Assembly: GCA_025963725.1 (NCBI GenBank)
Contig: JAOQAE010000004.1
Location: 369,616-433,615 of the forward strand
Length of the DNA stretch: 64,000 nt
Reading direction: 5' to 3'
Source: Bacteroidota bacterium
GTDB lineage: Bacteria > Bacteroidota > Bacteroidia > 2-12-FULL-35-15
The position numbers were made by a program, and so were the translations under genes. The notes beneath the pieces are model-generated. The model did no database searches, had not been told where the DNA came from, and saw only the letters and a list, made by a program, of their open reading frames with translations. Positions 1 through 19,559 of the stretch are shown in pieces. Every line of letters starts with the position of its first letter. Position 1 is the stretch's first letter.

Positions 1-1
1 T

Positions 2-1134: not shown

Positions 1135-1164
1135 ACGCAATACAATTTTGTATTGCGTTTTTTT
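1135..1164 (+). terminator. Rho-independent terminator
   Basis: Perfect inverted repeat ACGCAATACAA (1135-1145) and TTGTATTGCGT (1148-1158) followed by a run of seven T (1158-1164). It ends the upstream transcript and directly abuts the ATG at 1165. Confidence 0.9.
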
Positions 1165-2981: not shown

Positions 2982-3684
2982 CGCTTGTGTTGTTATCAGC
3001 GGGCCGCAGCGGCTGCTGTCCGTCCCTTTTTAAGCAATGGTTGATCTTCGTTTTTAAATATTCCGGCAGCGGCGAATATAGTTTTTTCAGCTCATCTTCC
3101 GAATCGTCCCTGAATTCAAAATCATCGACGCTCAGCAGTGAAGCGTCGCCTGTGCCGGAAGCAATGGCTTTCCGGAGCTTGCCGATGTGTTTGAAATAAT
3201 TCTCTTTGCTCAGCTCGAACCATTCCACTTCATCGGATGGTGGAAAATCGTTCGAAGGAACATATCCCAGCTGCCTGTTATGGCCTATCGCTTTTGGGTT
3301 GGAGCGGAGGATCTTGATGTAATTCTTTTCGAACTCGTTGATGATAAAATTAAAATCGCTCATGATCACCGATGCCAGCGCGGGATGAATGTTGCCCCAG
3401 TAATCTTTGTCCCAGATGAACATCCCGCCTTCGGAAGTGCGCTTCTCATAATTGATGTTCTTCCCGTCGATCATGCCGATCTGCTTATTGTCGGCAGTAA
3501 TGGTGAAAAAATTATTGTAGATGTTGTTCACGCGGTTGAACCATTCTTTCTGCATCTCCGCTGAAATGTTCTCGCGGAACTGCATGCTGGCCCTGATCTC
3601 ATCGGAGTTGCGCTTTTCACGCACCAGTTCGATGTCCTTCTCCTTTAAGCGCGTTAAGGTTATTCCGTATTTGTGGATTCTCAT
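2968..3684 (-). CDS. GNAT-family N-acyltransferase, PseH-like
   Basis: A 238-residue protein. The first roughly 145 residues look like the RimJ/PseH branch of GNAT: TLTRLKEKDIELVREKRNSD, then IRASMQFRENISAE and EWFNRVNNIYNNFFTI, followed by IGMIDGKNINYEKRTSEGG and the acceptor-side ILRSNPKAIGHNRQLGYVP. PseH-type enzymes acylate the amino group of nucleotide-linked aminosugars. The last 85 residues are acidic and polar, look disordered, and are not part of the usual fold. Start is ATG overlapping the glycosyltransferase stop (TAATG). Cotranscribed with the KAS III/ACP genes, so an acyl-ACP donor rather than acetyl-CoA is conceivable (inference). Confidence 0.78.
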   Translation of the reverse strand: MRIHKYGITLTRLKEKDIELVREKRNSDEIRASMQFRENISAEMQKEWFNRVNNIYNNFFTITADNKQIGMIDGKNINYEKRTSEGGMFIWDKDYWGNIHPALASVIMSDFNFIINEFEKNYIKILRSNPKAIGHNRQLGYVPSNDFPPSDEVEWFELSKENYFKHIGKLRKAIASGTGDASLLSVDDFEFRDDSEDELKKLYSPLPEYLKTKINHCLKRDGQQPLRPADNNTSGEAG

Positions 3685-4607
3685 TACAGCTGCGTTTCAA
3701 TGGAGTAGGGTGGGCGCCTGTTCTGCAGCTGGTAAAGCTTGTAGAGGTATTGCCCGATAATGCCAAGGCAGAACAGGATGAGGCTGGTGCTGAACAGCAC
3801 GCTCACAATTAAAGAGGTGTAGCCCAAAGGCACATCATGAAAGATCTTTCTATACACAAAGCGAAGGCCCACGAAAAAGAACATCACCGAAAGGAACAAT
3901 CCGCCGTAGGTAAGGATGCGCAACGGCCCGGCGCTGTAGTTGATCAGGATATCGAAATAGGTCATGATCAGTTTTCGGATCGTATAGCCCGATGCGCCTG
4001 CCTTGCGCGGATGATGCTCCACATCCACAGTCTCGATCTTGCCCGTGTACCATGCGAGCACGGCGTCGATAAATAAAAAGTTATGGCTGTGGTTCTGCAG
4101 CAGCTTGTTGGTGAGTGAAACCTTCACCAGCCTGAACGATGATCCGCTCTTGTTCTTGCTGTTGGTATGGTCGGATGTTTTCCTTACCATAAAGCTTCCC
4201 GCATTGCGTACTGTCGAATGTTTTTTATTCAGCGGAAGCCCGTAAACAATATCGGCTCCCGTTCTTTCGTAAGTGCTGATCAACTTGGGGATCTCTTCCG
4301 GCGGGTGCTGCAGGTCATCGTCCATGGTGATCACCACTTCGCCCTTGCAGAAATTAAATCCGCAGAGGATCGCATTGTGCTGGCCGAAATTTTTTGACAG
4401 CCTGATCGCCGAGATGTTGAAAGCGGAACCGGCCTTGATCTTTTCGATCTCGCTCCAGCTCTCATCCCTGCTGCCGTCATCCACGAGGATCAGCTCGTAC
4501 GATTTGTCTGTTTGCCTCAGCGTGGAATCGATCCTGCTGCACAGCTCATGCAATGTTTCCTTGCTGTTAAAAACCGGTATTACAACAGATACATCCGTTT
4601 TGTTCAT
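3684..4607 (-). CDS. Family 2 glycosyltransferase, DPM1/GtrB-like polyprenyl-phosphate sugar synthase
   Basis: A 307-residue protein with the GT-A Rossmann core: VSVVIPVFNSKETLHEL at the N-terminus, LILVDDGSRDESW, then the metal-binding ITMDDDLQHPPEEIPKL. Two hydrophobic segments near residues 230-255 and 265-295 form the C-terminal membrane hairpin seen in GtrB, ArnC and DPM1-type enzymes that move a sugar from a nucleotide to undecaprenyl or dolichyl phosphate. The product would be a lipid-linked donor for GT-C enzymes acting outside the membrane; a GT-C candidate is encoded at 7821-9785. The gene follows the SDR stop by one base and overlaps the GNAT start, so it is translationally coupled. 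Confidence 0.9.
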   Translation of the reverse strand: MNKTDVSVVIPVFNSKETLHELCSRIDSTLRQTDKSYELILVDDGSRDESWSEIEKIKAGSAFNISAIRLSKNFGQHNAILCGFNFCKGEVVITMDDDLQHPPEEIPKLISTYERTGADIVYGLPLNKKHSTVRNAGSFMVRKTSDHTNSKNKSGSSFRLVKVSLTNKLLQNHSHNFLFIDAVLAWYTGKIETVDVEHHPRKAGASGYTIRKLIMTYFDILINYSAGPLRILTYGGLFLSVMFFFVGLRFVYRKIFHDVPLGYTSLIVSVLFSTSLILFCLGIIGQYLYKLYQLQNRRPPYSIETQL

Positions 4608-4608
4608 T

Positions 4609-5358
4609 TTATAAACCTCCTAATAAAAAGCCCCCGTCGAGGGTGATGGTTGTTCCCGTGATCCACTTTGAAGCGTCGGATAATAAAAAGATGGCGGCAT
4701 TGGCAACATCCTCCGGAGTGCCTGCTCCCAGCGGGTATTTGCTGATGTGCGCATCCATCTGTTCCTTGGTGCCCTGCGCTTCCGCCTTGTCGTACATCGG
4801 TGTTTTTACCATGGCCGGCGCAATGCAGTTGGAGCGGATCTGCAGGTGAAAGAATTCAAGCGCCACCACTTTGCTGAAGGCTTCTATCGCCGCCTTTGAT
4901 CCTGCATACAAGGCTCCTCCGCGGTGCGGGTGCAGGGCGGAGATCGATGAAAGAAAAACCACCGATGCGCCTTTGTTCAGCTTCTTTGCGCGCGTTGCCT
5001 GCGCTGTAAGAACCACCTGCACTTTATAGTTGATGTTAAATACTTCGTCGATCTTTTTATCGGAAAGGAATTTGATGGGATAGGGGCTCACTGTGCCTGC
5101 GCAGTTCACAATGCCATCCAGCAAAGGCAGCGCTGATACAAGGCGCTGCACTTCCTGCTCGTCCAGCAGCTCCGCCTGTATGCTTTTGTTCTCGCCGCTT
5201 TTCAGCATCGATAATGTTTCGTTCAGCCGCTCTTCATTCCTGCCGGTGATCACCACATTTCCGCCCATTTCGCAGATGCTGATCGCCACCTGCCGCCCGA
5301 TGCCGGAGGAGGCGCCGGTGACAAGAAATGTTTTATTGTGGAGGTGAAAAGCTGTCAT
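4609..5358 (-). CDS. SDR-family oxidoreductase, FabG-like
   Basis: A 249-residue short-chain dehydrogenase/reductase. The cofactor motif TGASSGIG lies at residues 14-21, NCAG follows in the next strand region, a Ser precedes YAGSKAA (the YxxxK catalytic pair), and the C-terminus ends ITLDGGFLLGG, typical of FabG-like proteins. I start at ATG 5358, one base after the upstream stop, rather than the TTG at 5370. FabG-like enzymes reduce 3-ketoacyl-ACP with NADPH, which fits its place directly after a KAS III-ACP pair. A sugar or alcohol substrate cannot be excluded. Confidence 0.9.
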   Translation of the reverse strand: MTAFHLHNKTFLVTGASSGIGRQVAISICEMGGNVVITGRNEERLNETLSMLKSGENKSIQAELLDEQEVQRLVSALPLLDGIVNCAGTVSPYPIKFLSDKKIDEVFNINYKVQVVLTAQATRAKKLNKGASVVFLSSISALHPHRGGALYAGSKAAIEAFSKVVALEFFHLQIRSNCIAPAMVKTPMYDKAEAQGTKEQMDAHISKYPLGAGTPEDVANAAIFLLSDASKWITGTTITLDGGFLLGGL

Positions 5359-5359
5359 G

Positions 5360-6412
5360 TTACAATTCAATTAAAGGTAAGCAAACCATATCTTTTACAT
5401 GCAGGCTGGCCGATCCCCAGGATAATCCCACTCCGAATGCCGAAAGAAAAAGCGACGTGCTGTTTAATGTTTTGTCCTGCAGCTGCGTTACAATGGTAAG
5501 CGGAATGGAGGCGGAGCTTGTGTTTCCGAAGGTATCCAGCGAATAAGGGACTTTCTCCGCCGGCAGCTTCAGTTTCTTACGGATGCTCTCATTCATGATC
5601 TTATTCGCCTGGTGAAAAATAAAATAATCGTAGTCTTCCGTAGTAGTGCCTAAGTGCTTCATTAGTGCCTGCGCATTCTGCGGCGCTTCACGCAATGAAA
5701 AGTTAAACACCTCGATGCCGTCGAGAAATAAATTGCGTTTGTTTTTGATGATCCCCGGCTCATGCTCCTTCATCACTTCCGATTCGCTGGTGTACGGGTT
5801 GCGCAGTCCGCCATCGCTGATCATAATAGCCTTGTAACCGGAGCCGTCGCTTTGTAAATTGAAATTTATTTTTTCTGCCGCAGGATCATATTCAAGCAGC
5901 GTTGCAGTTCCCGCATCACCGAAAATAGGATAGGTGCTCTTGTCTTTTTTTGATTGGGAGAAGCTGGAAACATCCCCAGCCAGCAGCAGGCCTTTTTTGA
6001 AATTGCCGCTGCTCATTAAGTTGGTGATCACGGAAAGCCCGTACAGGTAGCCCGAGCAGCCGAGCTGGATATCGAAGGCCATAGCGCTTTTCGGAAGTCC
6101 GAGGCGGTCCTGCAGAATAATGCTGGTGGCAGGTAAAATATAATCGGGTGATTGTGAAACAAAGATGAGCACTTCCACTTCCGCTTTGTCAACTTTAAAA
6201 TGATCGAGCAATTGCCTTGCCGATTCGTAGCACATATCCGAAGTGCACATGCCGTTCTGCACGATCCTCCGGCTTTCTATGCCAGTGGTCTTGATGAGCA
6301 GCTCGCGCTCCTTTTCAGAGATCCAGTCGTAGTCCCTGTTGCTTTCTGTGTGCTGCGGAACGCAGGCAGCCATGCCCCTGATGTTTATGTTGGCGACAGA
6401 AAGGAATGCCAT
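5360..6412 (-). CDS. Beta-ketoacyl-ACP synthase III-like enzyme (first of two)
   Basis: A 350-residue thiolase-fold condensing enzyme. The KAS III catalytic triad is visible as Cys119 in QLGCSGYLYGL, His267 in IFHQANKI and Asn297 in DTFGNTSSASIP. It lies three bases downstream of the acyl carrier protein gene and one base before the SDR, so the three are surely cotranscribed. Housekeeping FabH primes fatty acid synthesis; this copy is embedded in a glycan/acyl cluster and has a paralogue on the other side of the ACP gene, which points to a specialised short acyl chain. Substrate is unknown. Confidence 0.92.
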   Translation of the reverse strand: MAFLSVANINIRGMAACVPQHTESNRDYDWISEKERELLIKTTGIESRRIVQNGMCTSDMCYESARQLLDHFKVDKAEVEVLIFVSQSPDYILPATSIILQDRLGLPKSAMAFDIQLGCSGYLYGLSVITNLMSSGNFKKGLLLAGDVSSFSQSKKDKSTYPIFGDAGTATLLEYDPAAEKINFNLQSDGSGYKAIMISDGGLRNPYTSESEVMKEHEPGIIKNKRNLFLDGIEVFNFSLREAPQNAQALMKHLGTTTEDYDYFIFHQANKIMNESIRKKLKLPAEKVPYSLDTFGNTSSASIPLTIVTQLQDKTLNSTSLFLSAFGVGLSWGSASLHVKDMVCLPLIEL

Positions 6413-6415
6413 AAT

Positions 6416-6646
6416 TTATACCCTGCTTTTTACTACGTTGAAAAGATCGTTCACCGATTTGCATTGCTGCAGGTCGGCTCCGGTAATGGTAACATTGTAT
6501 TCGGTATCGATGAGCGCGATGAGGATCAGCACATGCATCGAGCTCCATTCCTTGAGGGAAGTGAATTCGGTTTCCGGCTTGAGGGAGCCTGGTGTAAGCT
6601 CTTCTATTTCGTTTTCTATCTGGCTGATAAAAGTAGTAATGTCCAT
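6416..6646 (-). CDS. Acyl carrier protein
   Basis: A 76-residue acidic protein of normal ACP length. The phosphopantetheine attachment region is LKEWSSMHVLILIALIDTEY; by alignment to the classical DSL/DSM motif the modified residue is Ser36, with Ser35 replacing the usual Asp. The second half contains ITGADLQQCKSVNDLFNVV, matching the third helix. It sits between two KAS III-like genes, three bases from the downstream one and 57 bases from the upstream one, and is probably a dedicated carrier for the acyl group they build rather than the fatty acid synthase ACP. Confidence 0.9.
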   Translation of the reverse strand: MDITTFISQIENEIEELTPGSLKPETEFTSLKEWSSMHVLILIALIDTEYNVTITGADLQQCKSVNDLFNVVKSRV

Positions 6647-6703: not shown

Positions 6704-7711
6704 TTACAACCTCACAACTGTTCCTGACCATGAGTAACCGATCCCGAAAGAGGCGAGGAGCACAGTGCTTCCTTTTTTTGCTTTTCCCGCCTTTATGGCT
6801 TCATACAGCGCGATCGGAACAGATGCTGAAACGGTATTGCCGATCTCTTCCATGTACATAAAAAATTTATCTTCCCCGATCTTTAATTTCCTTCGCAGTA
6901 CGCTCAGCAAAAAAGTGTTGGCCTGGTGAAAAACAAAAAGGTCGATGTCTTCTTTCTGCAGCCCGTTCTTTGTGAGGATGTCGCTGATCATCGGAGGCAC
7001 CACGCGCATGGCGAATGAGAAGATCTCGAGCGAATTCATTTTCATCTGCCCGTATTTCATTCCGCCAACATCCTTGTTCTTTTCAAACCATTCGGCATCT
7101 GCAGCATTGCGTGTGCCGCTGCGCTCCACCATTAAATTATCTGCGCCGCTGCCGTCGGTGCCGAAGGAGAATTTTCCAACCCCATTGCTGATCTCCTCAT
7201 TGGATGTGATCAGTGTTGCAGCTCCCGCATCGCCGAAGATCATCCGCAATTCAGCATCGGAAGGATGGATCACCGTTGAGGGTATGTCCGAAGTAAGCAG
7301 CAGCACCGAATTTGCCTGCCCGCTTTCGATTAATCCTTTTGCCACGCTAAGCCCGTAGGTAAAACCCGTGCAGCCGAAAGGCACATCTATGGCGCCGCTG
7401 CTGGTAGGCAGCCCTAAGCGGTGCTGCAGGATGCAGGCCGTTGCCGGGCCTTTGTAATCAAGGCCTTCGGTGCAGAAAATTAAAAAATCGATTGTTGAAG
7501 GGTCGATCCCGTGTTCGCTGAACAGCTTCATCCCCGCTTCGTAGCCAAGGTCCGAGCCTACAACGCCATCTTTCGTGATATGCCTTTTGCGGATGCCGGT
7601 GCGTTTGAAAATGTCGTTTTCCGTAAGCGCAGGAAAGATACTGCAGAGCTCACTGTTGGAAAGTGTATGCTCCGGTAAGTAATAGCTGATGGCTTGAATA
7701 TAGGCGCTCAC
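6704..7711 (-). CDS. Beta-ketoacyl-ACP synthase III-like enzyme (second)
   Basis: A 335-residue condensing enzyme with a complete KAS III triad: Cys114 in PFGCTGFTYGL, His262 in VFHQANTF and Asn292 in EIGNTVSASVP. It is clearly diverged from its neighbour at 5360-6412 although the same motifs are present, so this is an old duplication or two separate recruitments rather than a recent copy. It is the first gene of the minus-strand operon that ends at 2223, with a promoter-like -7 box just upstream. Probably builds or transfers an acyl group on the ACP encoded next. Confidence 0.92.
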   Translation of the reverse strand: MSAYIQAISYYLPEHTLSNSELCSIFPALTENDIFKRTGIRKRHITKDGVVGSDLGYEAGMKLFSEHGIDPSTIDFLIFCTEGLDYKGPATACILQHRLGLPTSSGAIDVPFGCTGFTYGLSVAKGLIESGQANSVLLLTSDIPSTVIHPSDAELRMIFGDAGAATLITSNEEISNGVGKFSFGTDGSGADNLMVERSGTRNAADAEWFEKNKDVGGMKYGQMKMNSLEIFSFAMRVVPPMISDILTKNGLQKEDIDLFVFHQANTFLLSVLRRKLKIGEDKFFMYMEEIGNTVSASVPIALYEAIKAGKAKKGSTVLLASFGIGYSWSGTVVRL

Positions 7712-7820: not shown

Positions 7821-9785
7821 ATGGCACGTTTCATTTCGCTTCCTCCTTCCATCGATAAAAAAACATTCAAGAATTGCATTTACCTTTTTTGTGTGCTTAC
7901 TTTTCTCATTTATGGCAAAAGCATTGGCAACGGCTATTCGATGGACGATGAATATGTGATCCATAACAATACGCAGGTGCATGGCGGCATTGCCAAAATT
8001 CCCGAGATCTTCCGCAGCACTTATGCCATCGACGAGAAGGCCAGCTTTGAATACCGCCCGCTTGTAAAAGTAACATACGCCATCGAGTACCAGTTCTTCG
8101 GGGAGAGCCCGCACATCAGCCATTTCATCAATCTCCTCATTTATATTCTTTGTTTGATCCTTTTGTTTTATGCGCTGCTCCGCTTGCTGCCGGCATATCA
8201 TTACCTGTTTGCGCTTACGGTTGCGCTGCTCTTCTTAATTCATCCGCTGCATTCCGAAGTGGTGATCAGCCTCAAGAACAGAGACGTAATGATGAGCTTC
8301 ATTGGTTGCATGTGCAGCCTATTGTTTTATTTGCGTTATGTGGAAGGAAAAGGAAATGCTGCTGTGAACCTTGCGCTTGGCTTTTTTCTTCTCCTGCTCG
8401 GCATCATGTCGAAAAAGGACGCGATCACCTTTTTTGCCATTATCCCTTTTTCCATGTGGTTCTTCCGCGATGCCGGCTGGAAAAAGATCGGGCTCATTTT
8501 TCTTACGTATCTTCCCGTGGCCATCATATTCAGGCTGGCGGCAAAGTCGGTGACCAATAGCAATGTACGTACGCTGCTCCTTTGGGAAAACCCGCTGTTC
8601 ATTCATTCCACCCTCACCGAACGCATTCCGCAGGCGTTTTACAGCCTTTATTTTTATCTGAAGATGTTTTTGCTTCCGCATCCGCTCATCTCTTATTACG
8701 GTTACAACCAGGTTCCTATAGTCGGCTGGAGCCATCCCGTTGTTTGGATCATGCTCCTCCTGCTTACCGGGCTGGTGTTTCTTATCATAAAGCTGAGGGC
8801 GGTAAAGGAGCTTTGGTTCTATGGCATAATTTATTTCCTTATCACGATCTCCATGTTCACAAATGTGGTGGTGCCTGTTGTGGGTATTGTGGGTGAGCGC
8901 TTTGCATACATTCCTTCTGTGGGCTTGTGCATTGTTGCAGCATATTTCCTGCTGAACTATTTTAAAGTGCCGCTGCAGAACCTTGCGCTGAAGCTGAAGC
9001 TGGTGAGCAACGGTTATTGGCTGGCCATTGCATTGGCCCTGCTGCTGTACGGAGGTAAATCATTTTCAAGGAATGCCGATTGGAAGGATGCTTATACGCT
9101 TTATCATACCGATGTGGAAACGGCATCCGAGTCGGCGCATACGCATTCGCTCCTTGCTGCAACCGCATTGTCGCGGGTAAAAGCGGAGCCGCGCCTGCCG
9201 AAGGCTGAAAAGAAGCGCCTGGTGCTGGAAGCGGAAGCGCATTACCTCGAATCCATCCGGATCATACCCGATTACACCTCCTCGCACAACAACCTTGGGA
9301 TGTTGTATTATACCTACCTGGCCGACAACGCAAAAGCTACAAGGCACCTGGAAAAGGCCGTGGCGCTGGATTCCAACTATGTGGAAGCTTACTTTAACCT
9401 TGGCAGCTGCTATGCCGCAGCGCAGAAGTATGACCTCGCTGAAAAGTGTTACTTACGCTCCGTGAAGCTCAATCCGAGGTTCACAACGGCATACCAGGCG
9501 CTCAGCAATCTTTACGGAATACAGAAAAAATACGACCAGATCCTGCGCCTGAACCAGGAAGCCATCGATAAGGGAGTGAAATCGGATGTGATGTACGTGA
9601 ACATCGGGAATGTTTACTTTGTAAGCGGCGATACGCTGAAGGCCCTGCCTTATCTCGAAAAGGCGATCGAATTCAATCCCGACAACAGGGGAGTGAACGC
9701 TTTTCTGGCCAACTGGTACCAGGGAAAAGGCGATAAGCAGAGATCCGCTTACTATTACGATCTTATGTCACGCTCCTCGCGCTAA
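7821..9785 (+). CDS. TMTC-like membrane glycosyltransferase (GT-C) with C-terminal TPR repeats
   Basis: A 654-residue protein. Residues 1 to about 440 hold some ten membrane helices; after the first one comes the acidic loop SMDDEYVIHN (Asp42, Asp43, Glu44), expected to bind metal or lipid-phosphate sugar in GT-C enzymes. Further family-like motifs are EYRPLVKVTYAIEY, HPLHSEVVISLKNRD and GERFAYIPSVGL. Residues about 470-654 are tetratricopeptide repeats (SHNNLGMLYYTYL, AYFNLGSCYAAAQKYDLAEK). This layout is that of the animal TMTC O-mannosyltransferases, which use dolichyl-phosphate-mannose to modify cadherin beta-sandwich domains. Substrate and sugar here are inferred only. It diverges from the operon with the lipid-phosphate-sugar synthase and precedes a giant Ser/Thr-rich secreted protein. 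Confidence 0.82.
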   Translation: MARFISLPPSIDKKTFKNCIYLFCVLTFLIYGKSIGNGYSMDDEYVIHNNTQVHGGIAKIPEIFRSTYAIDEKASFEYRPLVKVTYAIEYQFFGESPHISHFINLLIYILCLILLFYALLRLLPAYHYLFALTVALLFLIHPLHSEVVISLKNRDVMMSFIGCMCSLLFYLRYVEGKGNAAVNLALGFFLLLLGIMSKKDAITFFAIIPFSMWFFRDAGWKKIGLIFLTYLPVAIIFRLAAKSVTNSNVRTLLLWENPLFIHSTLTERIPQAFYSLYFYLKMFLLPHPLISYYGYNQVPIVGWSHPVVWIMLLLLTGLVFLIIKLRAVKELWFYGIIYFLITISMFTNVVVPVVGIVGERFAYIPSVGLCIVAAYFLLNYFKVPLQNLALKLKLVSNGYWLAIALALLLYGGKSFSRNADWKDAYTLYHTDVETASESAHTHSLLAATALSRVKAEPRLPKAEKKRLVLEAEAHYLESIRIIPDYTSSHNNLGMLYYTYLADNAKATRHLEKAVALDSNYVEAYFNLGSCYAAAQKYDLAEKCYLRSVKLNPRFTTAYQALSNLYGIQKKYDQILRLNQEAIDKGVKSDVMYVNIGNVYFVSGDTLKALPYLEKAIEFNPDNRGVNAFLANWYQGKGDKQRSAYYYDLMSRSSR

Positions 9786-9824
9786 TATCTGGTTTTTGCA
9801 CTAATTTCAGAGAAAAAGTCCTTC

Positions 9825-9854
9825 ATGCAACCATTCCGAGCCCTTTCGCATCTG
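9825..9854 (+). promoter_or_regulatory. Possible ECF-sigma promoter
   Basis: ATGCAACC (9825-9832) and CATCTG (9849-9854) are separated by 16 bases. An AAC core in the -35 element with 16-17 base spacing is the general pattern of ECF sigma promoters. The exact Bacteroidota consensus is recalled, not checked. It lies upstream of two secreted-protein genes. Confidence 0.35.
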
Positions 9855-9876
9855 TTGGGAACGGATTGCTCCTTTT

Positions 9877-9907
9877 TTTGCATGATGTGTTTTTTTTTAT
9901 ATCTTTA
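9877..9907 (+). promoter_or_regulatory. Candidate housekeeping promoter
   Basis: TTTG at 9877-9880, 19 bases, then TATCTTTA at 9900-9907 (seven of eight to TAnnTTTG). Spacing is ideal; the start codon is 48 bases downstream. Confidence 0.45.
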
Positions 9908-9955
9908 TCGTTGAAATATTCCATTTTATATTTAAAAACGTAAATCTCATCGTAC

Positions 9956-10360
9956 ATGAAACAGGTTTTTACTCTCTCCTTTTTATTACTTGGCCTTAGT
10001 GTATTTTCGCAGCAGAAGAATCCGCCTGCAAAGCAGCCGGCAGCTGCCACTACTGTAACTACGCCGCCGGCCCCGCAGGAAACTCCGGTGAATCCAAGGG
10101 CAACAAGTACTTCGTCCCAAGTAAAAAGCTCAGAGGTAGCACCTTTGCCTTACGATGTGAATGACAAGTACATGGGCCGGAAAAGCGAATTCCTGAACAG
10201 CATGACCGTGTCTGAGCTTCCTGCCGATTTCCCGGCATACGAAAAGCAATGGAACCTGAAGGAGTACAACCAGGTGGTGGAGGCATATTTTGTAAATCAC
10301 CGCGAGCTGCTGAAACCCCGGGTAAAAGAGAAGATCGATCTTGCTCATCCAACCAATTAA
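9956..10360 (+). CDS. Secreted protein of unknown function with Pro/Ala/Thr-rich linker
   Basis: A 134-residue protein. The signal peptide is MKQVFTLSFLLLGLSVFSQ, with likely cleavage after SVFSQ. Residues 20-60 are rich in Pro, Ala and Thr and probably unstructured. The remaining part (YDVNDKYMGRKSEFLNSM, then FPAYEKQWNLKEYNQVVEAYF) is compact, helical and charged. I do not recognise a family. It starts 39 bases before the giant repeat protein and shares its promoter region, so the two may act together, for example as a periplasmic helper of the giant protein (inference). Confidence 0.7.
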   Translation: MKQVFTLSFLLLGLSVFSQQKNPPAKQPAAATTVTTPPAPQETPVNPRATSTSSQVKSSEVAPLPYDVNDKYMGRKSEFLNSMTVSELPADFPAYEKQWNLKEYNQVVEAYFVNHRELLKPRVKEKIDLAHPTN

Positions 10361-10399
10361 TTGCTTTTAAATTTCTCTAAGAACACTAAACCAAGCCAT

Positions 10400-13300
10400 A
10401 TGAAAAGAATCCTATTCTTTTTTGCATTTATTGTATTGTCCTCGGGATCAATATTTGCCCAGGGAAGCAACTGTGCCAGCGCAACTCCATTTTGCGGAAG
10501 CGCAACTTTCGCTAATAACACATCTACCGTTTCACAGGCGGGGCCCAGCTACGGATGTTTGGGTACACAGCCTAATCCGGCCTGGTTCTTCGTAAAAACG
10601 ACAGGTGCGGGGAACATGGTGTATAACATCAGCCAGGTAAATACCGCCGGAACGGGGATCGATGTCGATTTCATTGCCTGGGGGCCTTTTGCCAGTATGG
10701 CCAACGCCTGTAACACCTTAACGGGTTCTTGTACAGGAAATCACGCCTGCTCGGGAAATATTGAAGATTGCGGATACAGTACCGCTGCGGTGGAAACAAT
10801 GACCCTTGTGTCGCCGGGTGCCGGACAATATTACGTGATCCTTATCACCAACTATGCCGATCAGAATGGTACCATCACATTTAACCAGACCAGCGGGCCT
10901 CCGTCCGATTGCTCCATTACCTGTCCGAGCGTAACTTCAGGTAATGGTTACCTGTTAACGAATGGCAGCCCCGTCCCATCGTCAGTCGCCTGTAGTACCG
11001 CCCCTTTTGGGATGATAGCCTCCAATAATACCCCGTTCGGGAATCCCATTACCCCCGGGGTCATGATCTCGTTTACATCAAATACCAATAATACGCTCCA
11101 GATCAACTGGTTTGAAAACTCCAGCTATGTGCTGTGCGCCGGGCCTGTCGCCTCCGGCTGCGGCATCCAGATCCCTACAAGTACAAATGAAGACATCCAG
11201 TTCTCCACGATGTCGCCTTCGGCCACCAACGATATCCAGTTTTGTGAAACGAGTACCGCCGATGGTAACATGCCTTACCAGATCGTCGACGTATCAAGCG
11301 GAACAATTTTAAACTCCGGCACCTGGGTCACCGATGCACTTTGCACCACGGTATCATTCCCTCCGGGAACAATTTCCGGGGTAGCTACATGGAGCATTTC
11401 ACCGGCATGCCCGGGTTGTATGACCACCACCGACTGGGGATATGCCACGTTCAATCCGGGTGTTGCACCTGCAGGAACGTACAATGTCTGCTATTCATTT
11501 GACCCTCCGGGAACTTGTCCTACTTATACTTATTGTCAGAACATCACAGTTACCAATCCGAACAATCCTGCATGGACCACTCCTGCGGCAATGTGTGCGA
11601 ATGCGGCTTCTGTCAATCTGAATACCCTTGTTACAGGTACTGCCGGCGGAACATGGTCGGGAACAGGTGTATCGGGCACAAGCTTCAATCCGGCCGTTTC
11701 AGGTCCGGGAACTTTTTCGGTGACCTATACTGTGGGTTCGGGAAGCTGCTCTGCAACCCAGTCGCATAACATTACCGTAAACCCTGTACCTACGGTTTCC
11801 ATCAGCCCTGCTTCTTCAACCATCTGTGCCGGAGCTTCCGTTACATTAACGGCAACACCCTCTCTCGGCGGAGGTACCTATTCATGGGCACCGGGCGGCG
11901 CAACAACTTCATCTATCACTGTAACGCCGGGATCAACCACTACTTATACAGTTACTTATACATTATCCGGCTGTACCGGAACAGCTACAAGGCTCATCAC
12001 TGTGAATCCAATACCTACGGTGAGTGTAAGCAGCCCGGCGCCTATCTGTGCAGGCGGTTCAGCAACCTTAACTGCCACGCCTTCCATAGGTGGAGGTACT
12101 TATTCCTGGTCGCCTGGAGGAGCTACAACGGCTTCTATCACCGTGTCACCGGCCTCAACTACTACTTATACGGTAACGTATACGCTCTCCGGCTGTACCA
12201 ACACAGGAACGGGAACAGTAACGGTTAACCCGGCTCCAACGGTCAGCATTACACCGGCTTCCGCTACTATTTGTGCCGGACAGTCTGCTACCTTAACGGC
12301 GAATCCTTCCGTGGGAGGTGGTACCTATTCATGGGCTCCGGGTGGCGCTACAACAGCTACCATTACGGTTTCTCCTGCAGGCTCCACAACATATACCGTA
12401 ACCTACTCATTATCGGGCTGCTCCACTACGGCGAACAGGTTGATCACAGTGAACCCGGTACCTACAGTAACGGTAAATAATCCGGCCGCGGTATGTGCGG
12501 GCTCCTCTGCCACGCTTACTGCCACTCCTTCAACAGGCGGCGGTACCTATTCATGGGCGCCCGGCGGAGCAACAACCTCTTCGATCACGGTATCTCCGGC
12601 ATCCACAACTACTTATACTGTGACATACTCGCTCGCGGGTTGCTCGGGAACAGGAACCGGAACGGTTACCATCAACCCTGTGCCTACTGTGAGCATCACA
12701 CCGGCATCTTCAACCATTTGTGCCGGACAGTCTGCTTCACTTACCGCTAACCCTTCATTGGGCGGAGGTACGTATTCATGGGCTCCGGGTGGCGCTACCA
12801 CTTCTACCATCACGGTTTCCCCTGCTTCATCCACAACGTATACGGTAACCTACAGCTTATCCGGCTGTACAACTACCGCAACGCGTTTAATTACAGTGAA
12901 CCCGGTTCCTACGGTTTCCGTGAACACGCCGGCAGCCATTTGCGCGGGTACCTCAACTACGCTTACTGCAACGCCTGCTCCGGGCGGGGGAACTTATTCC
13001 TGGTCTCCGGGTGGTGCCACAACGCAATCAATAACAGTTTCACCGGCTTCTTCAACAACTTACACTGTAACTTATACATTAACGGGTTGTTCCGGAACAG
13101 GAACAAGCACCGTAACGGTAAATCCTCAGCCTACGGTAAGCATAACGCCTGCAACATCCACCATTTGCGTGGGTGCCTCGGCATCGCTTACGGCTAACCC
13201 TTCATTAGGCGGCGGTACTTATTCATGGGCACCGGGCGGAGCTACTACTGCATCGGTAACTGTATCTCCTGCAAGCACTACTACTTATACTGTTACTTAC

Positions 13301-16300
13301 ACGCTGGCCGGCTGTACTGCCACCGGAACACGCGTGGTAACTGTGAACCCTATGGATAATGCTGCTTTCACCTACAGCTCATCCACGTATTGCCAGACAG
13401 GTGCCGATCCTTCGGCAACGATCACCGGCCTTCCGGGAGGTACGTTCAGCTCAAGTCCGGGAGGCCTCGTATTCCTGAGCACTTCCACCGGGCAGATAGA
13501 TGTAAGCGCCAGCGCGCTGAATACCTATACGGTTACTTATACCACTAACGGAACCTGTCCGAACACAAGCTCCGTGAACATTACCATTTCAAGTGCCCCT
13601 GCGGCCACGTTCAGCTATGCCGGCCCTTATTGCCAGTCGGCGGCTAATCCTACACCTACATTCAGCGGTGGCGGCAGCGCGGGTACATTCTCTTCTACAG
13701 GCGGACTTGTATTTGTGAATGTGAACACCGGCCAGATCAACCTTTCTGCAAGTACCCCGGGAACATACACGGTAACAAATACAATTGCTGCCAGCGGCGG
13801 ATGTGCTTCTGCAGTTGCAACCAACACCATCACGATCAATCCTTCACCGGTGATCACTGCAACACCGGCATCACAAACCATCTGCTCCGGATCGGCAACC
13901 TCCATTGCATTGTCGAGCTCGATAGGCGGAACATCTTATTCCTGGACAGTAAGCCAGACCGGTACCAGCGGCGCTTCTGCAGGTTCGGGAAGCAGCATCG
14001 CACAAACGCTTACAGCCACAGGTGCGGTAAACGGAACTGCAACCTATACCGTTACTTCGCTTTCAGGCGGATGTGCCGGAAATACGCTGATCATCACGAT
14101 CACGGTAAAACCAGTGCCTACAGTTACCCCGAGCCCGGTGGCACAAACCATCTGCTCTGGTAATACAACAAGTATCACGCTCACCGGAAGCCTCGCGGGT
14201 ACCACATTCGCATGGGGCGCACCAACACAAACAGCTGCCTCGGGTGGTACTGCGAGTTCAGGTTCCAGCATTGTTCAAACATTGAATGCAACAGGCGCAG
14301 GGGCCGGTACCGTTACATACAACGTGGTTCCTACAGCCAATGGCTGTCCGGGAGCTTCTGTCCCGGTTGTGATCACAGTTAATCCTGCACCGGTTGCAAC
14401 GGCAACACCTGCCGTATCCACGATCTGTTCAGGAGCGCCCACATCCGTAAGCTTAACAAGCACTGTTGGAGGAACTACCTTCAACTGGACTGCCGCTAAC
14501 GGAACAGGTATCTCCGGTGCAGCTTCAGGATCGGGATCCGCCATCAGCCAGGTATTGACCAACTCTTCCGCTGTAGTGGCTGCAGGCACCTATACAGTTA
14601 CACCTTCTGCATCGGGCTGTCCGGGCGGTACAATCACGGTTACCGTGAATGTGAATCCTGTACCTAACGTTACTCCAAGCCCTGCTTCTCAAACCATCTG
14701 CTCAGGTACTGCTACCAGCATTTCCTTATCAGGAACAGTTGCGGGAACAACATTCGCATGGGGCGCACCTACGCAATCAGCCGCTACAGGCGGAGCTGCG
14801 GGTTCCGGAAGCAGCATAACACAAACACTTACAAGTACGGGTGCAGGCGCAGGCACTGTTACCTATAACGTGATCCCTACGGCCAATGGCTGCCCGGGAG
14901 CCGGCGTGCCGGTGGTTATTAACGTGAATCCCGTTCCATTTGTCACTGCAACACCGGCAAGTGCCACTATCTGTTCAGGCGCAAGCACAGCGATCAACCT
15001 GACCAGCTTTACGGCAGGTACAACATTCAGCTGGACCGCATCTAACGGCGCTGGTATTTCAGGCGCTGTGGCAGGCTCAGGTGCCAGCATTATACAATCG
15101 CTCACAAATTCAGGGACTACCACGGGTACGGCAACCTATACAGTGACGCCTTCAGCATCAGGCTGTCCGGGCGCACCCATTACTGTTACCATTACAGTAA
15201 ATCCTGTTCCTAACGTAACGGCTACGCCTTCCGGACAGTCGATCTGCTCGGGAAGCACAACAGGCATCGCGTTAAGCAGCACCGTTGCAGGAACTACGTT
15301 TGCATGGGGCGCACCTGCTCAGACAGGCGCTACAGGCGGAACATCCGGCTCAGGAAGCTCGATCGCGCAGGTATTAACAGCATCAGGCACAACAACAGGA
15401 ACTGTTACCTATAACATTACTCCAACGGCCAACGGCTGCCCGGGAACACCTCTGGCAGTAAGCATCACTGTTGAGCCAAACCCTACGGTGAATGCAACGC
15501 CATCTTCTTCTTCGATCTGCTCAGGAACGGCAACATCCATTGCTCTTTCAAGCAACATCGCGGGAACAGGCTTTACCTGGACGGCAACCGCTTCCGGCGC
15601 AAGCGGAGAATCGGCGGGCTCGGGAAGCTCCATTTCACAGGTGCTTACGGCTACGGGAACATCGGCAGGAACAGTAACTTATAACGTAACAGCTACAACA
15701 CCTGCAGGATGTACCGCTACTATGCCTCCGGTAACAGTAACGGTTAATCCTACGCCGGATGTAAGCGCAACCCCGGTTGGTGCCACCATCTGCTCGGGTG
15801 CTACAACAGGCATCGCATTAACAAGCAGTGTGAGCGGAACAACATTTACATGGACAGCTTCCCAGACCGGCGCTTCCGGTGCAACAGCCGGATCAGGCTC
15901 AAGCATAGCGCAGGTGCTTACGGCAACAGGATCAACTCCGGGCTCGGTAGTGTATACTATCACACCTTCTGCAAGCGGCTGTGCAAGCGGCTCGCCGGTG
16001 TCGGTTACCATTGCGGTTAACCCATTGCCGGTTGTAACTGCAACGCCTTCCTCACAGAATATCTGTGATGCGGCAGCTACAAGCATCAGCTTAACAAGCA
16101 GCCTCGGATCCACTACGTTCAACTGGACAGTGAGCCAGACAAATGTTACAGGCGCTGCTGCAGGAACAGGAACATCCATTTCACAGCTGCTCGATCTTGT
16201 TAGCGCTACAACTGCAGGATCTGCGGTTTATACGATCACGCCCACTGATAACGGATGCGCAGGCAGCCCGGTTACAGTTACCGTGAATGTGAACCCGATC

Positions 16301-18853
16301 GATAACGCAGCATTCACTTATTCGTCCTCTACGTATTGCCAGACAGGCGCTGATCCTTCCGCGAACATCACCGGAACACCGGGAGGCGTGTTCAGCGTGT
16401 CGCCGTCCACAGGACTTGTGATCGATACACTGTCGGGGCTGATCGACCTGAGCGCAAGCGCACTCGGAACGTATAGCATTACATACCAGACAAACGGTGT
16501 TTGTCCAAGCAACAGCATTGTTACAGTTACCATCACAACTGCACCAAGCGCGCTGTTTGGCTATCCGCTCAGCTTCTGTTCTTCCGATCCGAACCCAACA
16601 CCTGTGTTCGGCCCTGGCGCCAGCGCAGGTACATTCTCGGCAAGCGCCGGCGGACTTGTGTTTGCAGATCCTGCAACAGGCGAGATCGACCTTGCGAATT
16701 CAACAGCCGGAACCTATGTGATCACCAATTCAATTGCCGCAGGCGGCGGATGTGCTGCTGCCTCTGCAATGGATACAGTTACCATCAACCAGGCCGCAAC
16801 AGTTACTGCTGGCCTTAATGATACCATCTGCGAGCTCGGAACAATGTTGCTCACAGGAACCATGGGCGGAAGCGCAAGCTCTGTACTGTGGACCACCAAC
16901 GGCTCGGGGAACTTTAGCGATGCAACGCTGTTGAACCCTGTTTATACGCCTTCAGCGGCGGATGTGGCCGCAGGTACAGTTGTATTGACGATCACTACAA
17001 ACGACCCTGCAGGCGGATGTAATGCGGTAACAGACTTTACCCTGTTATCTATCACTCCGCTCGACAGTGCAGCCTTCACTTATTCGGGAAGCACATTTTG
17101 CCAGTCGGGTACCGATCCTGTTCCAGCAATTACAGGTGTTACAGGCGGTGTGTTCAGCGCAAGTCCGGGCGGGATCTCTATCAATACCTCAACCGGTGTG
17201 ATCGACCTGAGCGCAAGTACGCTCGGAACATACACCGTAGTGTACACAACCAACGGGCCTTGCCCAAGCACAGACACAGCAACCGTGACCATTTCAACGG
17301 CTCCTGTTGCCACATTCTCCTTCTCAGGCGCAGCAACGTCATTCTGCCAGTCGGGAAGCAATCCAACGCCTGTATTCGCTTCAGGCGCAAGCGCAGGTAC
17401 ATTCACTGCAAGTCCTTCGGGATTAGTGTTTGTGAGCCCTTCAACAGGACAGGTTGACCTTGCCAACTCAGCGCCGGGTACATACACGATCGTGAATAAC
17501 ATTGTTGCTGCAGGCGGTTGTGCCGCTTCGGTAGATTCATTAACCATCACCATCAATGTTCCTGCAACAGTGAATGCCGGAACAGACACGGCGGTTTGTG
17601 CAGGCGCAACATATACCACCGCAGGAAGCATTGGCGGAAGCGCTAGCAGTGCAACATGGACCTCAAGCGGTTCCGGTGCGTTCGACAACTCGGCGCTCTT
17701 AAACGCAACGTATACGCCTTCTGTGGCAGATACAGCTGCAGGTACTGTTACCCTGTACTTAACAACAGATGATCCTTCAGGAGTTTGTAACGGGGTGCTC
17801 GATAGCATGGTGCTTACCATCACACCGTTGCCGCAAACGCCTTCCGTGACCAATCCTTCGCCATACTGCGCAGGATCGGCGGTTGGCCCGATCACCTTCT
17901 CCGGTGCGGGAGGAAGCGTTAACTGGTATTCCGATGCTGCTTTAACAACGAATATCGGAACAGGAAACCCGTTCACACCAACAGGCATCACAGGTACAAC
18001 AACAATTTATGCAACAGAAACAGTCGGCTCCTGCACAAGCTACTCATCAGCGGTAACCATCACGTTCAACCCGCTGCCGGTGGCCGATTCTACAAATGCA
18101 GTGATCACAGGCGCAACCTGCGGCGATTCCACGGGAGCCATCACAGGCGTAACGATCGTTTCAGGACAAAGCCCTTATACCTACCTGTGGCAGGATGTTT
18201 CCGGCAACAACGTAGGCGATTCACTGAATCTTTCGAATGTTGGCCCGGGTGTTTACACGCTCACCATTACCGATGGAAACGGCTGTGTGGCCATGATCGG
18301 CGGAGGTTCGTCATTTAACGTTACTTCCACAAGCGGTGTAGTTGCATCCTTCACGGCAACGCCATCAACAGGTGAAAAACCGTTGCCTGTAAGCTTTACC
18401 AACACAAGCACCGGCGGTGTAAGCTTCCTGTGGCAGTTCCCTGACGGCAGCGCGGATACAAGCTTTAACTCGAGCTATATCTTCACGCAGCTGGGCAGCA
18501 ACAATGTGTGCCTCATCGCCGATAACGGCGTAGGCTGTATCGATACGGCCTGCACCACCATTGATGTGTTCATTAACTCGGTATTTGTGATCCCTAACGT
18601 GTTTACGCCAAACGGCGATAACGTGAACGACGTATTTACCGTGAAAAATGTAGGCCTTGAAACAATGGATGCGGAGATCTATAACCGCTGGGGACAGAAA
18701 GAATACGAATGGCATACCACCAACGGCGGCTGGGATGGCCGTACGGCTGCAGGAGTGCTGGTTCCCGACGGAACATACTTCTTCATCATCAGCGCAAAAG
18801 GGATCGATGGAGTGGAGTACTTTGAGAAAGGCTCATTCGAGCTGATCAGGTAA
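10400..18853 (+). CDS. Giant T9SS-secreted repeat protein (Ig-like/PKD-like arrays, type B sorting domain)
   Basis: A 2817-residue protein with signal peptide MKRILFFFAFIVLSSGSIFAQ. I use ATG 10400 because the signal peptide begins there. After an N-terminal Cys-rich globular region (to about residue 460) come seven 74-75 residue Ig-like repeats (A), a 165-residue C unit, nine repeats of about 91 residues resembling PKD-like domains (B), then two C-plus-D units of 254-256 residues, a further Ig-like domain, a SprB-like repeat (SPYTYLWQD, GVYTLTITDGNGC), a PKD domain and the CHU_C sorting domain (VFTPNGDNVNDVF, YNRWGQ, PDGTYFF). Each A and B repeat has two Cys, likely a disulfide. The A repeats have no acidic residue and are extremely Ser/Thr-rich. 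Expected role: exported by T9SS as a surface stalk or adhesin; ligand unknown. Confidence 0.93.
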   Translation: MKRILFFFAFIVLSSGSIFAQGSNCASATPFCGSATFANNTSTVSQAGPSYGCLGTQPNPAWFFVKTTGAGNMVYNISQVNTAGTGIDVDFIAWGPFASMANACNTLTGSCTGNHACSGNIEDCGYSTAAVETMTLVSPGAGQYYVILITNYADQNGTITFNQTSGPPSDCSITCPSVTSGNGYLLTNGSPVPSSVACSTAPFGMIASNNTPFGNPITPGVMISFTSNTNNTLQINWFENSSYVLCAGPVASGCGIQIPTSTNEDIQFSTMSPSATNDIQFCETSTADGNMPYQIVDVSSGTILNSGTWVTDALCTTVSFPPGTISGVATWSISPACPGCMTTTDWGYATFNPGVAPAGTYNVCYSFDPPGTCPTYTYCQNITVTNPNNPAWTTPAAMCANAASVNLNTLVTGTAGGTWSGTGVSGTSFNPAVSGPGTFSVTYTVGSGSCSATQSHNITVNPVPTVSISPASSTICAGASVTLTATPSLGGGTYSWAPGGATTSSITVTPGSTTTYTVTYTLSGCTGTATRLITVNPIPTVSVSSPAPICAGGSATLTATPSIGGGTYSWSPGGATTASITVSPASTTTYTVTYTLSGCTNTGTGTVTVNPAPTVSITPASATICAGQSATLTANPSVGGGTYSWAPGGATTATITVSPAGSTTYTVTYSLSGCSTTANRLITVNPVPTVTVNNPAAVCAGSSATLTATPSTGGGTYSWAPGGATTSSITVSPASTTTYTVTYSLAGCSGTGTGTVTINPVPTVSITPASSTICAGQSASLTANPSLGGGTYSWAPGGATTSTITVSPASSTTYTVTYSLSGCTTTATRLITVNPVPTVSVNTPAAICAGTSTTLTATPAPGGGTYSWSPGGATTQSITVSPASSTTYTVTYTLTGCSGTGTSTVTVNPQPTVSITPATSTICVGASASLTANPSLGGGTYSWAPGGATTASVTVSPASTTTYTVTYTLAGCTATGTRVVTVNPMDNAAFTYSSSTYCQTGADPSATITGLPGGTFSSSPGGLVFLSTSTGQIDVSASALNTYTVTYTTNGTCPNTSSVNITISSAPAATFSYAGPYCQSAANPTPTFSGGGSAGTFSSTGGLVFVNVNTGQINLSASTPGTYTVTNTIAASGGCASAVATNTITINPSPVITATPASQTICSGSATSIALSSSIGGTSYSWTVSQTGTSGASAGSGSSIAQTLTATGAVNGTATYTVTSLSGGCAGNTLIITITVKPVPTVTPSPVAQTICSGNTTSITLTGSLAGTTFAWGAPTQTAASGGTASSGSSIVQTLNATGAGAGTVTYNVVPTANGCPGASVPVVITVNPAPVATATPAVSTICSGAPTSVSLTSTVGGTTFNWTAANGTGISGAASGSGSAISQVLTNSSAVVAAGTYTVTPSASGCPGGTITVTVNVNPVPNVTPSPASQTICSGTATSISLSGTVAGTTFAWGAPTQSAATGGAAGSGSSITQTLTSTGAGAGTVTYNVIPTANGCPGAGVPVVINVNPVPFVTATPASATICSGASTAINLTSFTAGTTFSWTASNGAGISGAVAGSGASIIQSLTNSGTTTGTATYTVTPSASGCPGAPITVTITVNPVPNVTATPSGQSICSGSTTGIALSSTVAGTTFAWGAPAQTGATGGTSGSGSSIAQVLTASGTTTGTVTYNITPTANGCPGTPLAVSITVEPNPTVNATPSSSSICSGTATSIALSSNIAGTGFTWTATASGASGESAGSGSSISQVLTATGTSAGTVTYNVTATTPAGCTATMPPVTVTVNPTPDVSATPVGATICSGATTGIALTSSVSGTTFTWTASQTGASGATAGSGSSIAQVLTATGSTPGSVVYTITPSASGCASGSPVSVTIAVNPLPVVTATPSSQNICDAAATSISLTSSLGSTTFNWTVSQTNVTGAAAGTGTSISQLLDLVSATTAGSAVYTITPTDNGCAGSPVTVTVNVNPIDNAAFTYSSSTYCQTGADPSANITGTPGGVFSVSPSTGLVIDTLSGLIDLSASALGTYSITYQTNGVCPSNSIVTVTITTAPSALFGYPLSFCSSDPNPTPVFGPGASAGTFSASAGGLVFADPATGEIDLANSTAGTYVITNSIAAGGGCAAASAMDTVTINQAATVTAGLNDTICELGTMLLTGTMGGSASSVLWTTNGSGNFSDATLLNPVYTPSAADVAAGTVVLTITTNDPAGGCNAVTDFTLLSITPLDSAAFTYSGSTFCQSGTDPVPAITGVTGGVFSASPGGISINTSTGVIDLSASTLGTYTVVYTTNGPCPSTDTATVTISTAPVATFSFSGAATSFCQSGSNPTPVFASGASAGTFTASPSGLVFVSPSTGQVDLANSAPGTYTIVNNIVAAGGCAASVDSLTITINVPATVNAGTDTAVCAGATYTTAGSIGGSASSATWTSSGSGAFDNSALLNATYTPSVADTAAGTVTLYLTTDDPSGVCNGVLDSMVLTITPLPQTPSVTNPSPYCAGSAVGPITFSGAGGSVNWYSDAALTTNIGTGNPFTPTGITGTTTIYATETVGSCTSYSSAVTITFNPLPVADSTNAVITGATCGDSTGAITGVTIVSGQSPYTYLWQDVSGNNVGDSLNLSNVGPGVYTLTITDGNGCVAMIGGGSSFNVTSTSGVVASFTATPSTGEKPLPVSFTNTSTGGVSFLWQFPDGSADTSFNSSYIFTQLGSNNVCLIADNGVGCIDTACTTIDVFINSVFVIPNVFTPNGDNVNDVFTVKNVGLETMDAEIYNRWGQKEYEWHTTNGGWDGRTAAGVLVPDGTYFFIISAKGIDGVEYFEKGSFELIR
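11783..13348 (+). repeat. Seven-copy Ig-like repeat array (A units), two-unit periodicity
   Basis: Units of 75 and 74 codons alternate strictly. Odd units begin PTVSI(S/T)PA..TIC, even units begin PTV(S/T)V..PA.(I/V)CAG. The higher-order period is 149 codons, 447 bp, confirmed by the spacing of the GGTACCTATTCATGGGC-type core near 11873 and 12320. Confidence 0.9.
13349..13843 (+). repeat. Solitary C unit between the A and B arrays
   Basis: A 165-codon unit containing two related halves (NAAFTYSSSTYCQTGADPSA and ATFSYAGPYCQSAANPTP). Related units recur at 16298 and 17060, each followed there by a D unit. Confidence 0.8.
13844..16297 (+). repeat. Nine-copy PKD-like repeat array (B units)
   Basis: 818 codons, nine units of about 91 residues with the frame TICSG..T.I.L.S, GTTF.W, GSG.SI.Q.L and GCPG. 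Units 2, 4 and 6 share FAWGAP while units 3 and 5 share WTA..G.GISGA, giving a second two-unit periodicity of about 546 bp. Confidence 0.88.
16298..17827 (+). repeat. Tandem duplication of a C-plus-D unit
   Basis: 16298-17059 (254 codons) and 17060-17827 (256 codons) share the order: NAAFTYSSSTYCQTGADP-like half, second half ending GTY.I.N.I.A.GGC, then a D domain (TVTAGLNDTICELGTMLL or TVNAGTDTAVCAGATYTT). Confidence 0.85.
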
Positions 18854-19139: not shown

Positions 19140-19559
19140 ATGCCTACTATCCAGCAATTAGTGCGTAAAGGAAGAACAAAAGCTGCTAACAGAAGTAAAT
19201 CTGCAGCTCTTGAATCAAGCCCTCAGAAACGTGGAGTATGTACCCGTGTTTATACAACCACCCCTAAAAAGCCAAACTCAGCAATGAGAAAGGTTGCCCG
19301 TGTTCGTTTAACGAACAAAAAAGAGGTGAATGCATACATTCCGGGAGAAGGCCACAACCTTCAGGAACACTCGATCGTTCTGATCCGCGGTGGAAGGGTA
19401 AAAGATCTTCCGGGAGTACGTTACCACATTGTGCGTGGTGCATTGGATACATCCGGAGTTGACGGACGTAACCAGAGGCGTTCAAAATACGGAACTAAAA
19501 AACCAAAAGCAGGAGCTAAAGGAGCACCGGCTAAAGGAGCACCGGCTAAAAAGAAATAA
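19140..19559 (+). CDS. rpsL: 30S ribosomal protein S12
   Basis: 139 residues. The decoding-centre loops are intact: [13 protein letters not shown] with Lys43, and [14 protein letters not shown] with Lys88 and Asp89, the residues that are changed in streptomycin-resistant or accuracy mutants of other bacteria, so the wild-type state is predicted. The protein is about 15 residues longer than the E. coli form because of a basic tail [12 protein letters not shown] made by a tandem 15-bp duplication. First gene of the operon, 64 bases after the predicted transcription start. Confidence 0.98.
19521..19550 (+). repeat. Exact 15-bp tandem duplication in the rpsL tail
   Basis: GGAGCACCGGCTAAA occurs twice in a row (19521-19535, 19536-19550), encoding GAPAK twice; a decayed third unit (GGAGCTAAA) precedes it. 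Confidence 0.9.

Follow-up and report, generated by a model that had tools for sequence, protein, structure and literature searches.

A TMTC-like GT-C enzyme, an acyl-sugar operon and a giant T9SS repeat protein in one Bacteroidota locus: a candidate envelope glycosylation module

What would a relative of the animal TMTC glycosyltransferases do in an uncultured member of the Bacteroidota, and does it act on the giant secreted repeat protein encoded beside it? We addressed this question for a locus within a window of 64,000 nucleotides, by which we mean the whole stretch of DNA that was analysed (Table 1). The original prediction held that the enzyme, on the model of TMTC O-mannosylation, modifies the Ser/Thr-rich, Ig-like repeats of its giant neighbour before export by the T9SS.

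Table 1. Features of the locus, with positions in the window.
Feature	Position	Strand	Remarks
C-terminal end of upstream T9SS type-B Ig-repeat protein	1..670	+	about 1318 aa; PF13585 match
Sulfotransferase (Sulfotransfer_3/1), possible modifier	1153..2256	+	Pfam 2.4e-25
Asp/Asn beta-hydroxylase-family protein (OlsC/LpxO-like), possible acyl hydroxylase	2223..2981	-	PF05118 1.4e-39
GNAT N-acyltransferase, PseH-like	2968..3684	-	PseH TIGR03585 8.4e-9, under cut-off
Polyprenyl-phosphate sugar synthase, GT2, ArnC/PgfS/GtrB-like	3684..4607	-	profile matches, TM prediction
SDR, 3-ketoacyl reductase-like	4609..5370	-	adh_short_C2 4.1e-46
FabH2, KAS III-like	5360..6412	-	Cys119, FHQAN/GNTS catalytic motifs intact
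Acyl carrier protein (ACP)	6416..6646	-	76 aa; EWSSM phosphopantetheine site; PP-binding PF00550
FabH1, KAS III-like	6704..7711	-	Cys114, FHQAN/GNTV intact
TMTC-like GT-C glycosyltransferase	7821..9785	+	11 TM helices (predicted) and C-terminal TPRs
Small secreted protein	9956..10360	+	134 aa; no Pfam match
Giant Ig/PKD-like repeat protein, T9SS-secreted, candidate acceptor	10400..18853	+	2817 aa
Seven tandem A repeats, zero Asp/Glu	11771..13336	+	residues 471-992 of ORF
T9SS type-B sorting domain (CHU_C/TIGR04131)	18590..18853	+	profile matches above cut-offs
rpsL (S12), first gene of str operon	19140..19559	+	PF00164

Kinship, fold and motifs of the enzyme

The enzyme gene encodes a protein of 654 aa which bears, as had been said of it, the motifs SMDDEY, HPLHSEVV and GERFAYIPSVGL together with C-terminal TPRs. 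Pfam searches with the window enzyme detected the TPRs alone and not TMTC_DUF1736 (PF08409), its TM domain by itself gave zero GT-C family matches in Pfam even at E 10, and neither sequence nor profile searches of the PDB matched a GT-C protein, so that its kinship rests on its paralogues and on its fold. Two homologues exceed the TMTC_DUF1736 cut-off of 27 bits, namely L059, a full-length protein with 29% identity to the window enzyme (E=3e-77; 39.9 bits), and the paralogue L058 (43.1 bits), and in orthologues the homologous loop gives sub-threshold matches (G010, 23.5 bits, E=1.7e-4; G007, 3.8e-4). These homologues decide the question of kinship with TMTC; the window enzyme itself stays under the DUF1736 cut-off. 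Among 14 control genomes, Bacteroides ihuae included, DUF1736 was matched in none.

In an AlphaFold model built from 21 homologues (pLDDT 86.6, pTM 0.83), a TPR superhelix comes after 11 predicted TM helices, and the published TMTC topology is likewise 11 TM helices plus TPRs (PMC7801869). Because Foldseek searches with the full-length model were swamped by TPR proteins, the TM domain was modelled on its own (pTM 0.90). The best match of this model was Pmt4 (E 1.8e-4, prob 1.00), followed by PglB, OST and Pmt1-Pmt2, and nearly all of the top 22 matches were GT-C proteins (Pmt4, PglB, OST, AftD, ALG3), nearly all with a prob of 0.9-1.0. The window enzyme is thus predicted to have the fold of the GT-C superfamily, with modelled best matches that are mostly protein glycosyltransferases, and its TPR domain would lie on the exoplasmic/periplasmic side, judging by the DD loop. 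We also looked for another GT-C family without likeness to TMTC and found none; fold, topology, motifs and the DUF1736 matches of the full-length homologues agree in relating the enzyme to TMTC.

Within the 21 homologues D42, D43, Y78-R79-P80 and R360 are invariant and E359 is nearly so, and the alignment shows KxRD and Lys198 to be invariant or nearly so, like DD, YRP and the Arg of ERxxY. The TMTC motifs M1 (DD), M2 (its YRP part) and M7 (ERxxY) are therefore present, and like animal TMTC1-4 (CAZy GT105) the enzyme combines a predicted GT-C fold of 11 TM helices with C-terminal TPRs on the lumenal or periplasmic side; its acceptors, too, would probably be beta-sandwich proteins. Unlike the animal enzymes, it lies under the DUF1736 cut-off and has lost both predicted TMTC metal ligands, the Glu of KE(T/Q)xxT (M4) being Lys (SKKDAIT) and the Asp of DW (M5) being replaced by YYGY, which in this or a similar form is found in almost the whole subfamily. 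For this reason we call the enzyme TMTC-like, and not TMTC.

The giant neighbour and its repeats

The reading frame of the giant (10361-18853) is 2830 aa long when read from a TTG, or 2817 aa if the ATG at 10400 is taken as the start. Its N-terminus carries the signal peptide MKRILFFFAFIVLSSGSIFAQ, and its domains comprise nine PKD_5 stretches, Ig_7 and CHU_C (62.5 bits, cut-off 27), with a TIGR04131 type-B sorting domain at 44.2 bits (cut-off 35). Each of the seven A repeats (74-75 aa) contains 27-31 Ser/Thr residues, about 40%, and zero Asp/Glu; D[S/T] motifs are absent from them, all 14 lying beyond residue 2021 of the ORF. The description of a 2817-residue secreted protein whose A repeats are acid-free, Ser/Thr-rich and devoid of the Asp-Ser/Thr motif thus agrees with our counts and with the signal peptide.

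The giant has the highest Ser/Thr fraction (0.319) in a set of 43 T9SS-B proteins from this genome, each about 600 aa or longer, and the runners-up (0.31, 0.31, 0.30, 0.30 and onwards) place it at the end of a continuum. Its rank follows a trend among the giants of this genome and is unremarkable by itself; we dropped the idea that a high Ser/Thr content identifies the substrate, contrary to the original prediction, since many giants of the genome are equally rich without an adjoining TMTC-like gene. The N-terminus of the giant was dropped as a mark of orthology, its sole strong match being in G009: G010 and G015 have a giant in the same position, yet with an N-terminus that is not comparable. 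The small gene between enzyme and giant was dropped as a conserved subunit, for its sequences diverge among loci (13-83% identity in the alignment).

At the far end of the locus, the upstream T9SS protein (PF13585 at G000:C4:370019-370276, the gene running to about 370285 on G000:C4) has A-type repeats that are 51-64% identical to those of the giant, an arrangement shared by L068 and L070, and this protein is a candidate second acceptor. Farther along the window, 41123-43450 (+) encodes a PorZ-like T9SS component, consistent with a working T9SS, and 54358-56934 (-) encodes a single protein in which a type I phosphodiesterase domain, TPRs and a sulfotransferase domain are fused.

An acyl-sugar operon and its recurrence with TMTC-like genes

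The operon divergent from the enzyme gene has the order FabH1, ACP, FabH2, SDR, GtrB/ArnC-like synthase, GNAT and hydroxylase. The original prediction undersold this neighbourhood; the gene of the ACP, which sits between the two FabH genes (21.3 bits, cut-off 20.8), was absent from its listing. Both KAS enzymes retain the catalytic Cys, His and Asn. The synthase, correctly foreseen as DPM1/GtrB-like, has a GT2 domain with DDGS and DDD motifs and two C-terminal TM helices; its best named models are ArnC (PRK10714, 5e-50) and PgfS (1.5e-41), both under the equivalog cut-offs, and with 142.7 bits against a cut-off of 500 it is not a PgfS equivalog. The nearest named model of the GNAT is a 4-amino-sugar N-acetyltransferase (PseH), and the hydroxylase matches the OlsC model at 2.9e-32, under the cut-off. 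The operon holds no amino-sugar synthesis genes; elsewhere in the genome there are five strong DegT-type aminotransferase matches.

The closest precedent is the O-antigen R-group pathway of Flavobacterium psychrophilum. From its genes wfpC/D/E/F/G, a pair of KAS enzymes together with an ACP, a reductase and an acyltransferase are predicted to place 3,5-dihydroxyhexanoyl on a 4-amino sugar, Qui2NAc4N, the sugar structure itself having been determined (PMC6519341). The window operon shares the two KAS, the dedicated ACP, the ketoacyl reductase and an N-acyltransferase with wfpC-wfpG; it differs in that the acyltransferase is GNAT/PseH-like and not a PglD homologue and in that there is no Wzx/Wzy locus, and it has the ArnC/GtrB-like synthase and the TMTC-like enzyme in addition. 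On gene content and this precedent, it is well supported that the operon represents an N-acyl-sugar pathway plus a polyprenyl-phosphate-sugar synthase, and such an extra synthase is what feeding a periplasmic-side GT-C enzyme needs.

These results bear on the sugar. TMTC-type O-mannosylation, in which the enzyme would mannosylate the Ig-like repeats with Und-P-mannose from the synthase, would suit the kinship of the enzyme, the linked DPM1-like synthase and the Ig-like beta-sandwich cadherin domains that animal TMTCs modify (PMC11292533). However, the linked pathway is one of ACP, KAS III, reductase and GNAT for acyl-sugar synthesis, the best-scoring named models of the synthase are ArnC and PgfS, and both metal-ligand motifs of TMTC (motif table in PMC7801869) are changed. 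We consider mannose an improbable donor sugar and abandon this part of the original prediction; the donor pathway here would supply an acyl-amino-sugar where the animal enzymes use mannose, and the acceptors would leave by the T9SS.

The genes recur together in relatives. When 80 TMTC-like loci were picked by enzyme similarity alone, their seven most frequent neighbour families were FabH (32), GtrB (23), SDR (21), GNAT (19), sulfotransferase (18), ACP (17) and hydroxylase (13), counts in which, as in the co-occurrence and T9SS counts below, species are not independent and near-identical loci (e.g. L091/L093) were tallied separately. Co-directional runs of TMTC-FabH1-ACP-FabH2-SDR-GtrB-GNAT are found in L091, L093 and L109, with partial runs in L098 and L107. 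Cassette-type FabH2 is present in 30/149 genomes of the class, 29 of which have a TMTC-like gene, compared with 59/119 genomes without FabH2 (p=3.7e-7). The cassette adjoins a TMTC-like gene in 5/20 further sampled loci and often stands apart, which implies that it also serves at a distance or serves other enzymes.

One could also suppose that the FabH-ACP-FabH-SDR-GNAT-hydroxylase set makes an acylated lipid, similar to ornithine lipids, and that its linkage to TMTC-like genes is indirect; OlsC/LpxO-like hydroxylases act on acyl chains in known lipids, and genomes of family f37 have the cassette directly beside rpsL without a TMTC-like gene or a giant. We regard this as very improbable, given that the ArnC/GtrB-like synthase is retained inside the cassette at almost all loci, that just one of the genomes with cassette-type FabH2 lacks a TMTC-like gene, and that the pair of KAS III and their dedicated ACP have counterparts among the dihydroxyhexanoyl-sugar genes (PMC6519341).

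Linkage to T9SS proteins was assessed on the next same-strand gene with a product of at least 200 aa, with other genes from the same loci as controls. This gene encodes a T9SS or large Ser-Thr-rich protein for 7/8 orthologous TMTC-like genes, and for 13/70 non-orthologous ones compared with 4/492 other genes (p=1e-9). On the enzyme tree the cassette linkage needs 13 changes and the T9SS linkage 11, and both occur in well-separated clades. The genomic association of TMTC-like genes with the cassette and with T9SS proteins is well supported, as anticipated for the latter in the original prediction; a lack of any such association was looked for and did not occur.

The whole arrangement is repeated in relatives with TMTC-like enzymes of 51-87% identity, the rpsL flank marking the place of the TMTC-small-giant genes, and a GT2 synthase, a GT-C enzyme and a surface-protein gene share one locus in this genome plus at least seven related genomes. 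The giant is not an obligate partner, however: at two orthologous loci, G007 and G038, FabH1 and rpsL flank the enzyme gene, and both the small gene and the giant are missing. In each of two families the acyl-sugar cassette is next to the str operon (rpsL side of the window at 19140; L250/L254). This adjacency suggests old vertical inheritance, with the TMTC-small-giant genes inserted or lost between FabH1 and rpsL.

TMTC-like genes also recur in another neighbourhood (L096, L110, L113-L116, L118, L122, L137 and L146). It features an AMP-binding (FAAL-like) ligase family, present in 12/80 loci, and several of the loci just named have a single FabH1-type gene of more distant kinship; this neighbourhood may represent a different acyl donor route. 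Tandem arrays of TMTC-like paralogues occur in single genomes (G006:C1:111113-127259, with about nine; G004:C78; G013:C359).

A candidate envelope glycosylation module

With about even confidence, we take the locus for an envelope glycosylation module which transfers an Und-P-linked N-acylated amino sugar to secreted proteins, the giant included, before their export. In the cytoplasm, FabH1, ACP, FabH2 and the SDR would assemble a short (di)hydroxyacyl group, which the GNAT would put on an amino sugar supplied by genes in other parts of the genome; loading the acylated sugar onto undecaprenyl phosphate would fall to the ArnC/GtrB-like enzyme, and flipping would presumably follow. In the periplasm, the TMTC-like enzyme would transfer the sugar to Ser/Thr of secreted proteins gripped by its TPR domain. 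The neighbouring giant is the most likely acceptor, probably not the only one, and would be exported afterwards. Counted against this mechanism are the absence of the giant at G007 and G038, the frequent separation of the cassette from the TMTC-like gene, the giants of equal Ser/Thr content elsewhere in the genome without a TMTC neighbour, and the absence of amino-sugar genes from the operon.

The main rival to a protein acceptor is that the TMTC-like enzyme decorates LPS or capsular polysaccharide, in the manner of GtrC, with the Und-P-acyl-amino-sugar of the cassette, the T9SS protein being a mere neighbour. GtrB and a GT-C enzyme form the classical O-antigen-modifying pair in other bacteria, the best named model of the synthase is ArnC, and the giant is missing from two orthologous loci. 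In addition, O-polysaccharide is known to carry acylated amino sugars (PMC6519341). Nevertheless, among the recurrent neighbours, in clusters that are partly annotated and were read by eye, no O-antigen assembly genes were recognised, and the significant adjacency to T9SS proteins, the C-terminal TPRs and the protein glycosyltransferases among the best fold matches make polysaccharide decoration, in our view, an unlikely role.

We infer a protein acceptor from the T9SS linkage, the TPR domain, which in TMTCs is thought to recruit acceptors (PMC11292533), the likeness in fold to protein glycosyltransferases and the analogy to the pgf operon of Streptococcus mutans, whose membrane GT and PMT-type protein modify the adhesin encoded by a neighbouring gene (PMC5856776). 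Like Pgf (PgfS-PgfM1-PgfE-PgfM2 / Cnm, WapA), the window locus has a GT2 synthase and a GT-C enzyme beside a surface-protein gene; Pgf differs in being Gram-positive, in its GT-C enzymes, which are of the PMT_2 family with no TPR reported, and in its sugar, which comes from an epimerase where the window locus has an acyl pathway. The conserved clustering with acyl-sugar genes and giant repeat proteins suggests that the TMTC-like enzyme probably glycosylates surface proteins.

The proposed activity resembles the general O-glycosylation of Bacteroidota in that Ser/Thr of exported proteins would be glycosylated in the periplasm. Unlike the D-S/T sites of that system, the A repeats lack D[S/T], and TMTC-like genes are patchy (88/149 genomes) and multi-copy, not universal. 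A 2025 review describes the OTase and ligase of Bacteroidota O-glycosylation as undiscovered and suggests homologues of eukaryotic O-mannosylation enzymes as leads (PMC12871550). Given its patchy spread and the lack of a DUF1736 match in B. ihuae, we dropped the TMTC-like enzyme as a candidate for this general OTase. TMEM260-like proteins (PF11028) are relatives of GT117, the other animal enzyme that O-mannosylates Ig-like domains. They occur in 144/149 genomes of the class, mostly in one or two copies (e.g. G000:C6:658390-658926), and of the 14 control genomes B. ihuae alone has one. For general Bacteroidota O-glycosylation, in which mannose is the first sugar of the glycan, these proteins are strong candidates for the core transferase.

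In the literature searched, which left most subscription journals outside, we found no studies of bacterial TMTC-like proteins. The enzyme family varies a known type, and its pairing with an acyl-sugar cassette appears undescribed. A broader reading, which we offer tentatively and think somewhat doubtful, is that many paralogous TMTC-type enzymes form a novel class that glycosylates T9SS Ig-like repeats with Und-P-linked (dihydroxy)acyl-amino sugars, the periplasmic TPRs choosing the acceptor; this would be a bacterial counterpart of animal cadherin O-mannosylation, and perhaps a relative of its source.

Finally, the locus places a relative of eukaryotic O-mannosylation enzymes in a compact, recurrent cassette, alongside genes for its probable donor pathway and for a probable acceptor. 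If our reading is correct, giant surface stalks would carry a fatty-acyl-bearing sugar, which would be a new type of protein modification, and the locus would bear on the origin of the TMTC enzymes.
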